Positions 49,742-57,220 of a stretch of 64,000 nt of DNA are shown here, piece after piece. The stretch covers positions 62,001 through 126,000 of the forward strand of contig JACQAL010000076.1 of NCBI GenBank assembly GCA_016195025.1, given 5' to 3'. The stretch comes from Bacteroidota bacterium. GTDB lineage: Bacteria; Bacteroidota; Bacteroidia; Palsa-948. The translations under genes were made by a program, and so were the position numbers. Below the pieces are notes generated by a model, which worked only from the letters and a program-made list of their open reading frames with translations, was not told the DNA's origin and made no database searches. How positions within the stretch are numbered: the stretch's first letter is position 1; the number at the start of each line of letters is the position of its first letter.

Positions 49742-49920
49742 AGATTCCTCACTTCGTTCGGAATGACAGCGCTGTTTTATAGGATTGGGCGGTCGGGCTT
49801 AAGCCCGACCGCCTCCATTACCCGAATGCCCGTTGTCATTCCGAGTGAAACGAGGAATCTCTTTATTGATTCCACCCCCGTTGTCATTCCGAGTTCCTCA
49901 CTTCGCGGGACGAGGAATCT
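49742..49920. repeat. Cluster of REP-like GTCATTCCGA units
   Basis: Unit A (49742-49767) reads agattcctcacttcg...cggaatgac. Unit B (49835-49860) is its reverse complement with small changes. Unit C (49883-49920) is B with an inserted copy of the ttcctcacttcgcgggacg segment. A and B flank a perfect palindrome. The GIY-YIG gene ends inside unit C's last base. Confidence 0.8.
49788..49813. repeat. Perfect 26-bp palindrome
   Basis: GGCGGTCGGGCTT followed directly by its reverse complement AAGCCCGACCGCC, no loop. It sits midway between REP-like units A and B. Long loopless palindromes are unstable in bacterial chromosomes, so its survival suggests selection or recent insertion. Confidence 0.85.
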
Positions 49921-50264
49921 CATTTATTATTTCCAAACGAGGAACCTCTTTTTTCAGAAACAGGAATCTCTATCTTTCCATTTTCATACAAGTCCTTCCA
50001 TTCAGGATTCTGCTTATTGATGAGCGCAATCTTTTTCGCTCCCGAATATCCTTTGATTTGTTTCTCTCTGGCAATTGCCAAATCAATGAAATCAAATTTC
50101 TCAAAGTAAAGCAATTTATCTACATTATATTTTTCTGTAAATCCCTTAATCAATTTCTTTTTGTGTTCGAATGTTCTTCTTACTAAATCATTAATTACAC
50201 CGGTATAAAGAACAGTATGATTCTTATTGGTTAGAATGTAAACATAATATAAATGGATTTTCAT
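49920..50264 (-). CDS. Small GIY-YIG nuclease
   Basis: 114 residues. The single GIY-YIG domain begins YYVYILTNKNHTVLYTGVINDL (about residues 6-27; catalytic YVYI...YTGV) with the downstream Arg (LVRR) and Glu (AREKQIKGY). The family cuts DNA; stand-alone copies abound in Bacteroidota. Its last about 20 residues (EIPVSEKRGSSFGNNK) are encoded by the flanking REP-like DNA, so the gene appears to end inside a repeat. ATG overlaps the upstream stop by 4 bases (ATGA), suggesting coupled translation. Confidence 0.9.
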   Translation of the reverse strand: MKIHLYYVYILTNKNHTVLYTGVINDLVRRTFEHKKKLIKGFTEKYNVDKLLYFEKFDFIDLAIAREKQIKGYSGAKKIALINKQNPEWKDLYENGKIEIPVSEKRGSSFGNNK

Positions 50265-50818: not shown

Positions 50819-51738
50819 ATGAAAAAAATAATTTCTGCCTGCGGTTTACTGTTTTCGGTTTACGGTGGTTTTTCCCAAACCGATTCAACAAAAAAGCCCG
50901 CTGCGTTAACTGAACCTACAGATACCGGTCATGCCGGTTATGTTGTTCCGGGTTTGGACACCACGCATAAAGGCATTACCGATATGGGAGTGGCGGTGGC
51001 TCCTGCCATGTTGTTTTACCGCGTGAAGCCGGGAAACACCACCGTGCAGTATGTTACCATTACCAACGATACGTACAAGAAAAATAAATTCAAACTCACT
51101 TTTTCTGATTTCACCATGAGCGATGCAGGCGCCATTGAGCAAATTCCTATAGGGCAGAACGGGGAATACGGATTGACAAAGTGGATAAACGTTGCGCCCA
51201 ATTACATTGAATTGCAGCCGGGCGAAAAAAAAAAGTTGCCGTTACCGTTTCGCTGCCCGATAACGATGCCGCCTACCGCTCGCTTTGCGCGCTGCTGATG
51301 ATTGATAAAGTGATTGACCGCGATTATATCGCTCCGCCCGCCAACGATGATAAGAAGGTTGTGCTCGGAGTTATTCCCACTTATGGCTTCGGCATTTACA
51401 TTTATCAGAACCCGCCCAACGTGAAAATAAACAAAGTGGAAATCACCAATTTTAATTTTACTTACGATACGGCAAGCAAATATGTATCGCTGCATGTAAA
51501 AAACAGTGGCGATGGAACCGGCTTCTGCAAAGCATACGTTGAACTCACTAACACAAGCACCGGAAAAAATGAGCGCATTCCTTTACGCTCGTTCACTGTT
51601 TTTCCAAAAAAGGAACGCGGCTTTGAGTTTACCGTTCCCGGTAAAATTGCCAAAGGAAAATACTCTGCCATTGCGGTGCTTGATTTTGGCAGCAAGGAAG
51701 AATTAGAAGCCGCAACGCTTGAATTTTCAGTGCCCTGA
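50819..51738 (+). CDS. Periplasmic two-domain Ig-like (chaperone-like) protein, needs -1 frameshift
   Basis: Two overlapping frames: 50819-51298 (signal peptide, first Ig-like domain) and a second frame read from 51235 to 51738. The join is a run of ten A (51225-51234) followed by G; the codons GAA AAA AAA AAG end in A AAA AAG, the dnaX slippery heptamer, and a -1 step there yields GEKKKVAVTVSLPDNDAAY..., a 306-residue protein with no stop. Domain 1 (GVAVAPAMLFYRVKPGNTTVQYVTITND ... IELQPGEKKKVAVTV) has the PapD-like pattern 'polypeptide chain with conserved TITN strand, then LxPGE'. Domain 2 covers the second frame. First gene of the cluster; chaperone role is inference. Confidence 0.75.
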
Positions 51739-51919: not shown

Positions 51920-52831
51920 ATGAAAAAAACAATTTTCCTACACGCAGCGTGCGCATTGTTCTTCGGAATAAATGCAAACGCACAATTGCAGGATGAAAAA
52001 AATGTAACCATCACAATGGATTTACAACCCATTCTGCAATTAAACATGCAAGGTCCTGACCAGATTGATTTCACCTTCGACCAGATTTATCAGTATTACG
52101 GAGGCATTACAAAGTATGGCGCAACTACGTTGAAAGTGAGCGCAAGCGTATCGTTCGACTTGTGGGCTGCAGGGCTCTCACAAGCGCAACTCGGTACCAA
52201 CTTTATGTGGGATAACCCCGTGAACTACGGTGGCGCTGCCGGTGGTAACGTTCTTAATGGCGCTAATAACTTCATTCCGGTTTCTGCGCTTGAACTGCGC
52301 CAGTTTCCCGCCAACCCGGCTGTGGCTGCTACCTGCGCTACAACGGGCGCTCAAAACAGCGATTACAGCAAGGCGTTTCAGGCGGCAACTGCCGCTGGCG
52401 TGGCTGCTTCAAACAACGATGTGTTTGCCGCAAACCCAACCACTCCTTACACTTCGCCTACTTCGGTAGCGGGTGTTACCTCTGATAAATACATTGCAGG
52501 AGGAACAGGTGTGGGAACATTTGCTGCTCCCTGCGGAATTGCGGGCGGAAGTTATTTAACGCAAGCCGCTTTGGGTACAAGTAATTACTATTATATTATG
52601 GATTACCGTTTGGTGCCAGGGCTTCCGGCAACTTTTCCTTTCCACAATAATGCTGCTACTGACAGAGCATTTGGTGGTACGGGCGCAACCATCAATTTCG
52701 GTTCTCCAGGCAATGTTGCCGTTGCTGCCGCACAAGGTGCTACCGGCTTAGGAAAAACCGGTGGAAACAACTTTGCTCAGCCCGGTGTGTATACCATGTA
52801 TGTAAAATATATTCTGGCAGAAGACCAGTAA
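51920..52831 (+). CDS. Secreted subunit-like protein 1 of surface cluster
   Basis: 303 residues. Signal peptide MKKTIFLHAACALFFGINANAQ. The first mature part (NVTITMDLQPILQLNMQGPDQIDFTFDQIYQYYGGITKYGATTLKVS; key residues DFTF, YYGGITKYGATTL) is shared with protein 2 (NLTFDNFGEYLAGITKYGASTLRL). It ends in an Ala/Gly/Asn-rich region and a last strand QPGVYTMYVKYILAEDQ, matching GEYTFIIDYQ/YQLTVKYCL of protein 2. Two Cys (AATCAT, APCGIAG). Two similar secreted proteins beside a chaperone-like gene suggest fimbrial or coat subunits; the family is not recognised by me. Confidence 0.75.
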   Translation: MKKTIFLHAACALFFGINANAQLQDEKNVTITMDLQPILQLNMQGPDQIDFTFDQIYQYYGGITKYGATTLKVSASVSFDLWAAGLSQAQLGTNFMWDNPVNYGGAAGGNVLNGANNFIPVSALELRQFPANPAVAATCATTGAQNSDYSKAFQAATAAGVAASNNDVFAANPTTPYTSPTSVAGVTSDKYIAGGTGVGTFAAPCGIAGGSYLTQAALGTSNYYYIMDYRLVPGLPATFPFHNNAATDRAFGGTGATINFGSPGNVAVAAAQGATGLGKTGGNNFAQPGVYTMYVKYILAEDQ

Positions 52832-52928
52832 TAAAAAAAGGAGAGAGAGAAACCCGTCTCTGCTATCAATAGTATTAACTAAAGATGGAGGGCAGTTGAG
52901 AAGTAAAAAGTCATCATAAATCAGTGAG

Positions 52929-52966
52929 ATGGGGGAAGCACGAAAAGTTTCCCCCATTCTTTTTAT
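52929..52966 (+). terminator. Rho-independent terminator between the two subunit genes
   Basis: Stem ATGGGGGAA/TTCCCCCAT (52929-52937 with 52949-52957), 11-base loop, then tctttttat. It would make subunit 1 transcripts more abundant than those of subunit 2 and the barrel protein. Confidence 0.75.
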
Positions 52967-53001
52967 AGGTTTTCTTCTATTGCTCTTCGCTCGTTTTTAC
53001 C

Positions 53002-53793
53002 ATGGAAAAATATAGGTTATTACTAAGGAATAAATCTATTCTTAGATTTAATGTCCTGTTTTTTGTTTTCTATTTGTTATCTACTCCTATGTTATCGGGT
53101 TTTCTTACCTGCTGCGCGCAAGCCCCCACCGTTTGCGATGCCGCCCCCGCAAACAACTGCTGCGCAGCCATAGGCAGCGGAAGCACCTTCACCCTGGCGC
53201 CCAATAACCCTTCCGATAACATTAACCTCACCTTCGATAACTTTGGAGAATACCTGGCAGGTATCACAAAATATGGCGCCAGCACTCTGCGCCTCACCAT
53301 TGCCGATGGCTCAGGAATACCAGGACCTTGCCCCGCCACACCCAGCATTTGCCGTTGGATATTGCATATAATGGAAGATAATTCAACCAACGTGGTGCTG
53401 CCCGCTGCCGCTGCAACCGAATGGGCGAAACTTGCCGTGTACGGAGGCGTGGGACCCATTTCAACCATACCCACACTTCCTCTGCTTCAAGTGCGCGTGC
53501 GCAACGCCTGCGGCACTTCCGAAACCAGCACCGGCTTTGTAACCCTTGCCAGCACCGCCAACTTCAGGTGCATCATTGATAACAGCTGCACCTCCGGCAC
53601 CGCCCCCGACACAGGTCCCCATGCCGACCAGCCGGCAGGTATGTGCACCATTAATGTAGATGAAGCGGGAGGTTATCTCACCAACCCCGGAGAATATACT
53701 TTTATTATTGATTACCAAATCAAGCCCACGCTCACCTTTGTGGCGGGCGTATATCAACTCACCGTAAAATATTGCCTGCGCAACGGACCATAG
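53002..53793 (+). CDS. Secreted Cys-rich subunit-like protein 2 of surface cluster
   Basis: 263 residues. N-terminal hydrophobic segment (about 14-40) then a mature protein rich in Cys (about a dozen: CCAQAPTVC, NNCCAAIG, GPCPATPSICRW, NACGTS, RCIIDNSC, MCTIN, KYCLRNGP), suggesting disulfide bonds. It shares the motif FTFD/NLTFD ... ITKYGASTLRL and the final strand with protein 1. Codons here are richer in C and G than in neighbours (many gcc, acc), which may mean transfer or strong expression. The ORF is followed after 23 bases of heptamers by the barrel gene. Minor or tip subunit is inference. Confidence 0.72.
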   Translation: MEKYRLLLRNKSILRFNVLFFVFYLLSTPMLSGFLTCCAQAPTVCDAAPANNCCAAIGSGSTFTLAPNNPSDNINLTFDNFGEYLAGITKYGASTLRLTIADGSGIPGPCPATPSICRWILHIMEDNSTNVVLPAAAATEWAKLAVYGGVGPISTIPTLPLLQVRVRNACGTSETSTGFVTLASTANFRCIIDNSCTSGTAPDTGPHADQPAGMCTINVDEAGGYLTNPGEYTFIIDYQIKPTLTFVAGVYQLTVKYCLRNGP

Positions 53794-53795
53794 AA

Positions 53796-53819
53796 TGACT
53801 AATGACTAATGACTAATGA
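53796..53819. repeat. taatgac heptamer array at the barrel-gene start
   Basis: Four taatgac-type units directly before and into the ATG (53816-53818). A second array of ttattca heptamers lies in the signal-peptide codons (about 53855-53884); the two contain mutually complementary cattag/ctaatg pieces. Confidence 0.75.
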
Positions 53820-56800
53820 AAAGAAAAATTACAAAAATAAGTATCCTTATTTGTTATTCATTATTCATTAGCCATTATTCATTTTCACAAGACACCGCTG
53901 CTGTAAAAAAAGACACACTTCCAAAAATTAAACCCGACACTGCCGCTGCTGCTGCCAAAGACACCACTCCAAAACCTCTATTCACTGCTTTTTTCGATAC
54001 CACAGAGTTCACATTAATAGAAGGAGAAATTGTTTCCAAAATACTGCGCCTGCAAAACAACAGCGGCAAAGAACAAAGCGTGCGCACCGCCATCAACTAC
54101 CCGGGCGGATGGAAACTACTCACCGATGTTTCAAAATATTACACTCTCGCCCCCAATGACAGCATTTTTATTCCCGTGCGCATTATCCCCTTGGGAAAAA
54201 TAAGAGGCAACACCAAATACCTCATCAACGCTTTTGTAATAAACAAAGATCAGGTGCCCATGGCAACTGCCTATTTTTATGCCGCCCGCCCCAAATCGGT
54301 TAACTGGGATATTACCATCTCCCCCTTCGATAAAGTGTACCTCATGAATGATTCCACCGGGGCAAAGTTTGATATCAACGTGCTCAACATCGGAAACGAA
54401 GAGCAGGCGCTGTTCATGCACATCAGCAATTACCGCAAAGATGTTTTACTCTACGACAGCACAGGGCGCATCCTCAAAAACACCTACCGCGAATTTAACC
54501 TCAAAGAACAGCATGACACTTCTTTTCATTACCGCGCAAGCATACTGCAAGGCAAGCGCAATTTCCGCACCGTAGATGAAATGGGTTATACCATCGGCTT
54601 TCTGAACGAGGCAAAACGCTATACTTTATTTGTTAACACCAGCCAAAGCCGCATACTCGGCACACAAGGCGTTCAGAAGATGAAAAAGGTTGACTTCGTG
54701 CGCCTGCCAAATGAAATGAAGGTAAACCCCAATAGTACTTTCTCCCTCCCCCTCATTGCCGAAGCCAATGTGGGCAACCTCGTTACCGGCCAGCCCGTAA
54801 TGAATCTTATGTTCTCCGGCTACACCACCCTTGATAATGGTGCAAGCATAAATTATTTCTCCCAGTTTTTCCTCTCGCTCTATTATGCCGATTTCAGTTT
54901 CCTGCGAAACAGCACCCAATACTTCGGCTACTATGACAAGAAATGGCAAATACAATTGGGAAGCGTGGGTGGCATTGGCGGAGCCATTGCAGCAGGGGGC
55001 AGAGGCGCCAACGCCATGTACCAGATTAATCAGCATCACTCCGTAGGTGCATTTTACACACGCGCACCCTATTTCTTTTCCAAACCCGACCGCGAATCGG
55101 TGGGCGCAGTATATGCTTTCAATGCATTGCGCTTCCGGCTCATGACTTCCTATTCTCACTTAAGCAATTCAGGAAACGTAAACTATACGTCCGATTACCT
55201 TGGCGCCAACAGCAATTACAGTTTCAGGGAAGGGCATTCCGTTACCTTTGGAGGATACGCTGTAAGAAATGCCTCCAGCGCCCCTGCAAACCCTTTTGTA
55301 AAATGGGGCTTCCTTGCCTACGGAAGTTATTCGGGAATGTTTTTAAAAGGGAAACTGCAATCATCGCTTTCCGGAAATTATATTTCTCCCTACTTCACCC
55401 CCTTCGACAAAGGCGATAAAATCACAGCCGCTCATAGCAGTCATTATATGCTCAACAAGCAATGGAACCTCCACCTGAACAACAATTACAATCGCAACAT
55501 TTACGAGCCGGTTCTCATCACTTCCAATCAGCAAAAACTCCGAAGCATCAACAACACACTTACTGCAAACACCAAAGTGGGAGAAAATTTTTTAGGCGGT
55601 GGTGTATTTTATAATTTCATCCGCAACAACGATACCATTAATATGCACTCACGCGGGCTCACCCTCAATTACAGCCAGGCAAAATATGAGAACAATACGT
55701 TCTTCTCTATGGGCATGCAGGGCGGATACAGCCGCCTTATAAACGCTCCCAATACGCGCGATTATTTTTTCTTCCAGTATTTCTCCCTCTTCCGGTATCA
55801 CACTTTTTCGGGAACCATTCGTTACAATTACGGGACCGTGTCAGTGCTTGACAAATATTATTCTGATAACGGAGTGTATTACCAATTCTTGGGAGCCAGT
55901 GTAAATTATCAATATCAATTCCGCAATCCGCACTGGGTGCTGAACGATTATTTAAGTTATGCCTATTACAACCAGTTTAAAAGGCATAGTATAGGTTGGA
56001 CGCCTGAAGTGCTTTACTTCAGCAAAACCGGATGGAGAGTGCGTGTAACAGGGGGGGTGTATTATTCTTCCAGCCTGGCAAACAGGGGAACAATTGCCAT
56101 TCCCGGTCAAACCGAAGAAGTGCCCGCACCTACAAGAACTCATTCTTACACTACCATGCTTCAGGTGGGCGTTCGCAAAGAATTTAACATTCCGTTTCCC
56201 TGGGGTAGCAAGAAAAGATTTTTCTCCCACACCTATATCGCATTCATTGACCTGAATGGAAATAATAAACGAGATAAAAATGAATTGCTGCTCGATAATG
56301 TCGTAGTCCGCACAGACGAATGGGAAGTTCTTACGGATGAAAACGGAAAAGCAAAATTGCTCAATATGGCTCCGGGCAGATATAATTTCTCTGCCTTCTC
56401 CCTCATTGATTTGAAAGGATATTTTCCGAATATTGAAGACAGCATTTCGGTTATTAAAAACGATACCATTCCAGTGCCTTTTGTGAAAGGAGTGAAAGTG
56501 TACGGGAATGTTTTTGTGGACAGAGAAAAACTTTCTCCCGATGCGGAAATTCCAGTTGACCTTTCAGGAATTCATATCAGCGCTTCAGGGGTAAGGAATT
56601 ATTCCACGCTCACTTCCAAAGATGGAACTTTTGAATTGTATGTCCCCTTTGGAAAATATACAGTAACAATGGATGAAAAAATTCTTGGCGACCGTTTTAC
56701 CTTGCTTCAAAACAATATTGAAATCACGCTTGATAAAAAAACCGAAAGTTTATTTGTAACATTTCTTATAGTCGAAAAAAGAAGAAAACTGAACATTAAA

Positions 56801-57220
56801 AAATTTGGCGAGCCAACCGGCAGCGCAAAGGATTCTGCTTCTTCAAATCCTGTAGCCCCTGCAGGAATTACATGGACAGGAACCGACACAGTTTCATCTG
56901 CCAAGCCATTGCCGGGCGCCATTAAAGTTCCGGGAAAAAATAATTTATATTACTACATGCTTCCCACAGGCCCGGGCGTAACATACCGCATTCAACTTGC
57001 AAGCACTTCCAAGCGGCTTACTCCTTCGCAGATTGCAACTCAGTTCAAAGGCGTGACGAATGTGAAAGAATATGTGGAAGGCGGGCTTTATAAATATACC
57101 GCTGGCGATGTAAACAGCGTAGGAGAAATTAAAAAGCTGAAAAATGATTTACGGACGAAGGGCTATAAAGATGCATTCATTGTTCCGTTCAAAGATAACC
57201 AGCGCCTGCAGTATAAATAA
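53816..57220 (+). CDS. Large outer-membrane protein: Ig-like, barrel, CNA-B/CarboxypepD-like, SPOR (usher-like)
   Basis: 1134 residues. Signal peptide (MKRKITKISILICYSLFISHYSFSQ), an Ig-like/NEW3-type region (about 45-260), a long barrel-like stretch full of Tyr/Asn/Gly strands (about 290-800), a CNA-B-like unit with FIDLNGNNKRDKNELLLDNV and VLTDENGKAKL (about 808-870), a CarboxypepD-regulatory-like unit (VYGNVFVDREKL ... TLTSKDGTFELYVPFGKYTV, about 893-985) and a SPOR-like C-terminus (YRIQLASTSK ... KGYKDAFIVPF, about 1055-1130). Ushers of fimbrial pathways also combine a barrel with such beta domains. This, next to a chaperone-like gene and two secreted subunits, suggests an usher-like exporter; SPOR would bind peptidoglycan. 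No detectable plug motif; not proven. Confidence 0.72.
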   Translation: MKRKITKISILICYSLFISHYSFSQDTAAVKKDTLPKIKPDTAAAAAKDTTPKPLFTAFFDTTEFTLIEGEIVSKILRLQNNSGKEQSVRTAINYPGGWKLLTDVSKYYTLAPNDSIFIPVRIIPLGKIRGNTKYLINAFVINKDQVPMATAYFYAARPKSVNWDITISPFDKVYLMNDSTGAKFDINVLNIGNEEQALFMHISNYRKDVLLYDSTGRILKNTYREFNLKEQHDTSFHYRASILQGKRNFRTVDEMGYTIGFLNEAKRYTLFVNTSQSRILGTQGVQKMKKVDFVRLPNEMKVNPNSTFSLPLIAEANVGNLVTGQPVMNLMFSGYTTLDNGASINYFSQFFLSLYYADFSFLRNSTQYFGYYDKKWQIQLGSVGGIGGAIAAGGRGANAMYQINQHHSVGAFYTRAPYFFSKPDRESVGAVYAFNALRFRLMTSYSHLSNSGNVNYTSDYLGANSNYSFREGHSVTFGGYAVRNASSAPANPFVKWGFLAYGSYSGMFLKGKLQSSLSGNYISPYFTPFDKGDKITAAHSSHYMLNKQWNLHLNNNYNRNIYEPVLITSNQQKLRSINNTLTANTKVGENFLGGGVFYNFIRNNDTINMHSRGLTLNYSQAKYENNTFFSMGMQGGYSRLINAPNTRDYFFFQYFSLFRYHTFSGTIRYNYGTVSVLDKYYSDNGVYYQFLGASVNYQYQFRNPHWVLNDYLSYAYYNQFKRHSIGWTPEVLYFSKTGWRVRVTGGVYYSSSLANRGTIAIPGQTEEVPAPTRTHSYTTMLQVGVRKEFNIPFPWGSKKRFFSHTYIAFIDLNGNNKRDKNELLLDNVVVRTDEWEVLTDENGKAKLLNMAPGRYNFSAFSLIDLKGYFPNIEDSISVIKNDTIPVPFVKGVKVYGNVFVDREKLSPDAEIPVDLSGIHISASGVRNYSTLTSKDGTFELYVPFGKYTVTMDEKILGDRFTLLQNNIEITLDKKTESLFVTFLIVEKRRKLNIKKFGEPTGSAKDSASSNPVAPAGITWTGTDTVSSAKPLPGAIKVPGKNNLYYYMLPTGPGVTYRIQLASTSKRLTPSQIATQFKGVTNVKEYVEGGLYKYTAGDVNSVGEIKKLKNDLRTKGYKDAFIVPFKDNQRLQYK

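Follow-up and report, generated by a model that had tools for sequence, protein, structure and literature searches.

Four genes lie in a row on the plus strand of the window, the whole 64,000-nt stretch of DNA that was analysed and to which all coordinates refer: a chaperone-like gene, CHAP, here frameshifted (50819-51738); two genes for secreted proteins, SUA (51920-52831, 303 aa) and SUB (53002-53793, 263 aa); and a gene for an usher-like outer-membrane barrel, BAR (53816-57220, 1134 aa). We propose SUA, a homologue of the TLP-1a and TLP-1b proteins discussed below, as the major (shaft) subunit of a fibre, and SUB, its Cys-rich paralogue, as the tip subunit; the two families are called A and B. 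A sequence-only reading of this DNA had picked out a motif near the N-termini of both secreted proteins, a contrast in their composition and a similar final strand, and all three stand, with amendments to the motif. Its SUA copy (52058-52138, plus strand, DQIDFTFDQIYQYYGGITKYGATTLKV) and SUB copy (53215-53295, plus strand, DNINLTFDNFGEYLAGITKYGASTLRL) are identical at 15 of 28 aligned residues. The opening D-x-T-F-D does not hold for SUB, which has N-L-T-F-D, and the closing LxL is found in SUB, as LRL, but not in SUA, which has LKV. The best ungapped 28-residue score between the proteins is 84, about 11 sd above 2000 shuffles (mean 28.6, sd 4.9, maximum 52). Gapped Smith-Waterman alignment gives 88, with one of 7000 shuffles above the real pair (the best, at 96) and one equal to it; this score is less decisive because shuffles of such biased sequences have a heavy tail, and we therefore rely on the ungapped test and on profiles. 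Alignment of 21 SUA with 17 SUB sequences by hhalign returns a probability of 99.6% and an E-value of 3.7e-24 over 172 columns, and the last strand (PGVYTMYVKYIL / AGVYQLTVKYCL) falls within it. As judged from these alignments, SUA and SUB are homologous along their length, well beyond the motif. The difference in composition is as described, with 48 Ala, 35 Gly and 3 Cys in SUA and 12 Cys in SUB; four Cys are invariant in the SUB family, which suggests two disulphides. A search of the rest of the genome with SUA gave no match other than SUB, and Pfam, NCBIfam and PHROGs hold no family for the subunits.

The suggestion that the motif defines a new subunit family has to be divided. It fails for A, whose family is already in the PDB as TLP-1, and survives for the operon and for B, which are apparently undescribed: no description of either was found in the literature searched. 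A single-sequence phmmer search with SUA matches 9ikk (E 1.7e-33) and 9ikj (E 4e-33) over the full mature length, and the SUA profile matches them with E-values down to 8.9e-68. By their titles these entries, of 16 chains each and released on 2024-11-13, are cryo-EM structures of TLP-1b (9ikk) and TLP-1a (9ikj). The SUB-family profile matches TLP-1 as well (E 5.2e-8), in the motif half only. The nearest A relatives found are up to 59% identical to TLP-1, and a freshwater MAG with a complete operon (L132) carries an A whose identity to TLP-1b is 54%. We take the names TLP-1a and TLP-1b to be those of the fibres of the CryoSeek pond-water work. TLP-1 was reportedly solved from unfractionated pond water; the study reportedly found that an N-terminal strand of protomer n+4 completes protomer n's Ig-like domain, and its authors are said to have suggested that the fibres are unknown bacterial pili. 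The CryoSeek work is identified here by its citation in PMC12967142 (doi 10.1073/pnas.2417046121). Because A is homologous to the TLP-1 fibre protomers, over the whole mature chain and with the N-terminal strand included, it is very likely a donor-strand fibre subunit. The comparison also works in the other direction: TLP-1 is a solved structure without an operon, a B, a chaperone or a barrel, and its fibres were seen by cryo-EM, whereas the operon described here is known from genes alone. As far as homology carries, this operon would be the first genetic context that can be named for the TLP-1 fibre family, earlier publication being possible. A class of fibres that has been known from pond-water cryo-EM densities and nothing else would thereby gain a genetic locus, with a chaperone, a secretion pore, a likely tip and carriers that can be grown in culture; who makes fibres of the TLP-1 class, and how, is now directly testable.

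The arrangement is not peculiar to this genome. A scan for patterns from the SUA alignment in 84,980 species genomes confirmed 97 loci. We kept 80 of them, which by record title are from Bacteroidota, except for one Chlorobiota MAG. The order CHAP-A-B-BAR is seen in 52 of the 80, the rest being mostly variants or contig ends. Family members had been expected to adjoin a chaperone-like or barrel gene, and they do: among the 58 loci whose flanks are adequate (at least 1.5 kb upstream and at least 5 kb downstream of A), all 58 have B, either by itself or in a B-A fusion, all 58 have a barrel and 57 have a chaperone. The objection that hits might lie scattered without such neighbours therefore fails. 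When the barrel is used as the query instead, 40 genomes out of 295 in the class have a relative, and most of those with enough flank show the same neighbours. An A-profile search of the phylum found 2 of 395 genomes, a figure that is unusable as a prevalence because few first-look candidates were scored per genome. Culturable carriers include Wenyingzhuangia heitensis, W. aestuarii, Flavicella marina and F. sediminum. There is also a second, divergent clade with the same two-subunit plan ahead of a barrel and often a chaperone-like gene nearby, in the other orientation. In profile comparison its A-like and B-like subunits are homologous to each other (99.2%) and also to their core counterparts, A at 97.7% and B at 96.9%.

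The proposed donor strand of SUA (51992-52036, plus strand, DEKNVTITMDLQPIL) is N-terminal, and few stretches of the family are as invariant; the conserved strand reads VTITMDLQPIL. In the family alignments an N-terminal strand of 11-16 residues is invariant in A and missing from SUB, and the hhalign alignment of the two begins only where that strand ends. The divergent clade repeats the pattern, the A-like proteins having the N-terminal strand and the B-like proteins not. Of the two kinds of subunit offered by the sequence-only reading, donor-strand and C-terminal-strand, the alignments favour the first: the donor strand is most likely at the N-terminus rather than the C-terminus, and on A only. 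The rejected kind has a natural model in the type V (FimA/Mfa1) pili of Bacteroidales, which are surface fibres of the same phylum, are built by strand exchange, and would fit the conservation of the last strand in both subunits. That the operon encodes such a system strikes us as very improbable. The invariant extra strand of A is at the other end; fimbrillin gave no Pfam match in the subunit families and no NCBIfam match among the window proteins; chaperone-like and barrel genes, foreign to type V systems, are almost always adjacent; and the two systems differ in secretion and donor strand and have no family in common.

With an N-terminal donor strand on A, B would have to be the distal tip, because a subunit without a donor strand can receive but not donate. 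In at least 7 genomes B is fused ahead of an A-type domain, A's strand forming the linker. Two-domain tip adhesins, FimH and CsuE among them, have their domains arranged in this order. A model of one natural fusion is only moderately confident (pLDDT 63, pTM 0.63); its PDB matches are TLP-1a/b first, followed by the donor-strand-complemented CfaB-CfaB and CfaE-CfaB fusions and CsuE. Integrin and axonemal-protein matches of the fusion and barrel models were discarded as generic beta-sandwich. The fusions take the place of the separate B gene at L105, L106, L107, L108, L109, L110, L111 and L067. At L116 and L137 two tandem A genes stand ahead of B, which suggests variant shaft subunits.

CHAP encodes a two-Ig-domain, periplasmic chaperone-like protein, placed by a 24-member family alignment and found upstream of A in most loci. 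In the window it is read as two overlapping frames, 50819-51298 and 51298-51738, the frame being lost at an A10 run (51225-51234, plus strand) that is the longest homopolymer of the window. The homologues checked are in frame through this site, and the break may stem from an error in the assembly, from slippage or phase variation, or from real breakage of the gene. The family matches WxLIP_PGBD in 20 of its 24 members (best E 1.3e-9), with the window CHAP at 20.2 bits and that of L063 at 24.3 bits, both below the 27.3 cut-off; EfmWxLIP1 matches CHAP weakly over both domains. The match to PapD_N (PF00345) is weak and confined to 2 of the 24 (best 0.0013). Synaptotagmin matches of the CHAP profile in the PDB were set aside as generic beta-sandwich. 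For the WxL systems of Firmicutes, the prediction is that the WxL beta-sandwich has a gap into which its partner WxLIP inserts a strand (PMC10599100). Pilus chaperones donate a strand to their partners in the same way, and by analogy CHAP would act as a chaperone in that sense. The same likeness could be read differently, with CHAP as the permanent surface partner that completes the subunits in a WxL/WxLIP-like complex, and no filament at all. We regard this as improbable. The WxL Pfam match is absent from the 38 subunits searched; A is homologous to filament-forming proteins; the aligned CHAP proteins stop after the Ig domain, with no space for a C-terminal transmembrane helix and so no membrane anchor of that kind; and a barrel is present here. 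A by-eye resemblance of the subunits to WxL-domain proteins was dropped, having no Pfam support.

The AlphaFold2 model of BAR (mean pLDDT 82) has a strand pattern that we read as two N-terminal Ig-like domains (53981-54544, plus strand, residues 56-243), then a beta-barrel of about 26 strands with no inserted plug domain (54743-56194, plus strand, residues 310-793) and C-terminal beta domains. The protein ends in a SPOR-like domain (56978-57193, plus strand; Pfam SPOR E 0.04). Against the PDB, 7 of the 8 best matches of the model are FimD or PapC ushers (best E 3.5e-13), in alignments over several domains with low TM-scores (0.2-0.4) and an rmsd of about 18 A; the first TonB-type receptor follows at E 2.5e-6, and LptD is also matched, more weakly than the ushers. 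The usher family PF00577 gave no match in BAR, its 46 relatives or the genome, with a positive E. coli control. We accordingly call BAR usher-like in its working, transport of the subunits being its probable role, and do not claim membership of the usher family. It could be argued instead that the subunits are fibre proteins that exit by another route and that BAR is a receptor or an anchor. The missing Usher match, the TonB-type receptors and LptD among the fold matches, and the SPOR-like end of the window BAR, a domain of peptidoglycan-binding type, all lend themselves to that argument. It is nevertheless unlikely in our judgement: in E-value the ushers stand six orders of magnitude ahead of the other fold matches, and BAR nearly abuts B (median gap 6 bases) and accompanies A and B at every one of the 58 flanked loci. 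The SPOR-like tail occurs in 3 of 68 barrels, and that of BAR resembles tails of other proteins in the same genomes or genus. Since it is missing from most relatives and similar to tails in the same genus, it was probably gained by domain shuffling.

Between SUA and SUB lies a terminator-like hairpin (52928-52958, plus strand; a 12 bp stem followed by T-rich CTTTTTATAG), which we propose as an attenuator; the gap as a whole has a z of -4.2. With a perfect stem of at least 8 bp as the criterion across loci, the A-B gap carries a hairpin at 56 of 73 loci, against 1.0 expected, the CHAP-A gap at 3 of 62 and the B-BAR gap at 0 of 55. In the divergent clade 8 of 11 A-B pairs have one, and the stem sequences differ among loci. 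Operons of the pap and fim type have a hairpin after the main pilin gene. By comparison with these, the A-B hairpin may attenuate transcription much as happens after a major subunit gene.

Our overall reading, for which we estimate a probability of roughly 0.8, is that the operon encodes a chaperone-usher-like donor-strand fibre pathway, known here from its genes, in which A is the shaft and B the tip. It seems to us just as probable that A and B are paralogues, Ig-like subunits from which an extracellular fibre is built by donor-strand exchange. In the periplasm both subunits would be held by CHAP, which probably lends them a strand, and BAR would give them passage across the outer membrane. 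B would exit first and become the tip; each A would then donate its N-terminal strand to the groove of the subunit already placed, so that the shaft grows. The hairpin 3' of A would lower expression of B and BAR and leave many A for each tip. Chaperone-usher pili (type 1, P, CFA/I and the archaic Csu) have the same set of chaperone, subunit and outer-membrane barrel genes in the same order, chaperone, subunits, usher. They are also alike, as alignment indicates, in that the Ig-like subunits carry a donor strand at the N-terminus and the tip does not, and in the hairpin after the main subunit gene, which on the pap and fim side is general knowledge. Unlike theirs, the operon here lacks PF00577 and has a CHAP nearer in sequence to WxLIP than to PapD; its BAR is modelled without a plug insertion and with extra N-terminal Ig domains, some of its barrels carry a SPOR tail, and its hosts are Bacteroidota. 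The pathway would thus extend donor-strand assembly with a dedicated barrel to that phylum, through protein families that are unnamed in current Pfam and NCBIfam models.

Several points speak against the pathway: BAR has no usher Pfam match and low TM-scores to ushers, with TonB receptors and LptD also among its matches, CHAP is closer to WxLIP than to PapD and is frameshifted in the window, and the fusion model is of moderate confidence. A further point is that the n/n+4 exchange attributed to TLP-1 is not obviously explained by a single usher-like pore. If the exchange is really of this kind, what the barrel assembles must be a four-start tube, with, for instance, several pores each extruding one protofilament, and we know of no usher that builds in this way. 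A broader claim, that this operon family makes the TLP-1 fibres themselves and constitutes a separate branch of donor-strand systems with chaperone and barrel families of its own, is more tentative, and we would give it somewhat less than even odds.

Several further observations concern the neighbours of these operons. In the clade nearest TLP-1, at L133 (13989-15551), L149 (8299-9864) and roughly a dozen more loci, the barrel adjoins a gene that encodes four FKBP-type prolyl isomerase domains; this gene often sits between barrel and chaperone, and its product is possibly a folding helper of the fibre. In the divergent clade the chaperone-like gene is often transcribed divergently from the subunits, and a MORN-repeat protein of about 400 residues is encoded beside it (L084, 4142-5401; L089, 8898-10124). 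At L160 the chaperone-like gene and the barrel are each split in two frames, perhaps by sequencing error. In the window itself, short direct repeats (CCCGTTGTCATTCCGAGT; AAACGAGGAATCTCTTTATT) at 49829-49976, by chance readable as short open reading frames, adjoin a small GIY-YIG gene on the minus strand (49920-50264).
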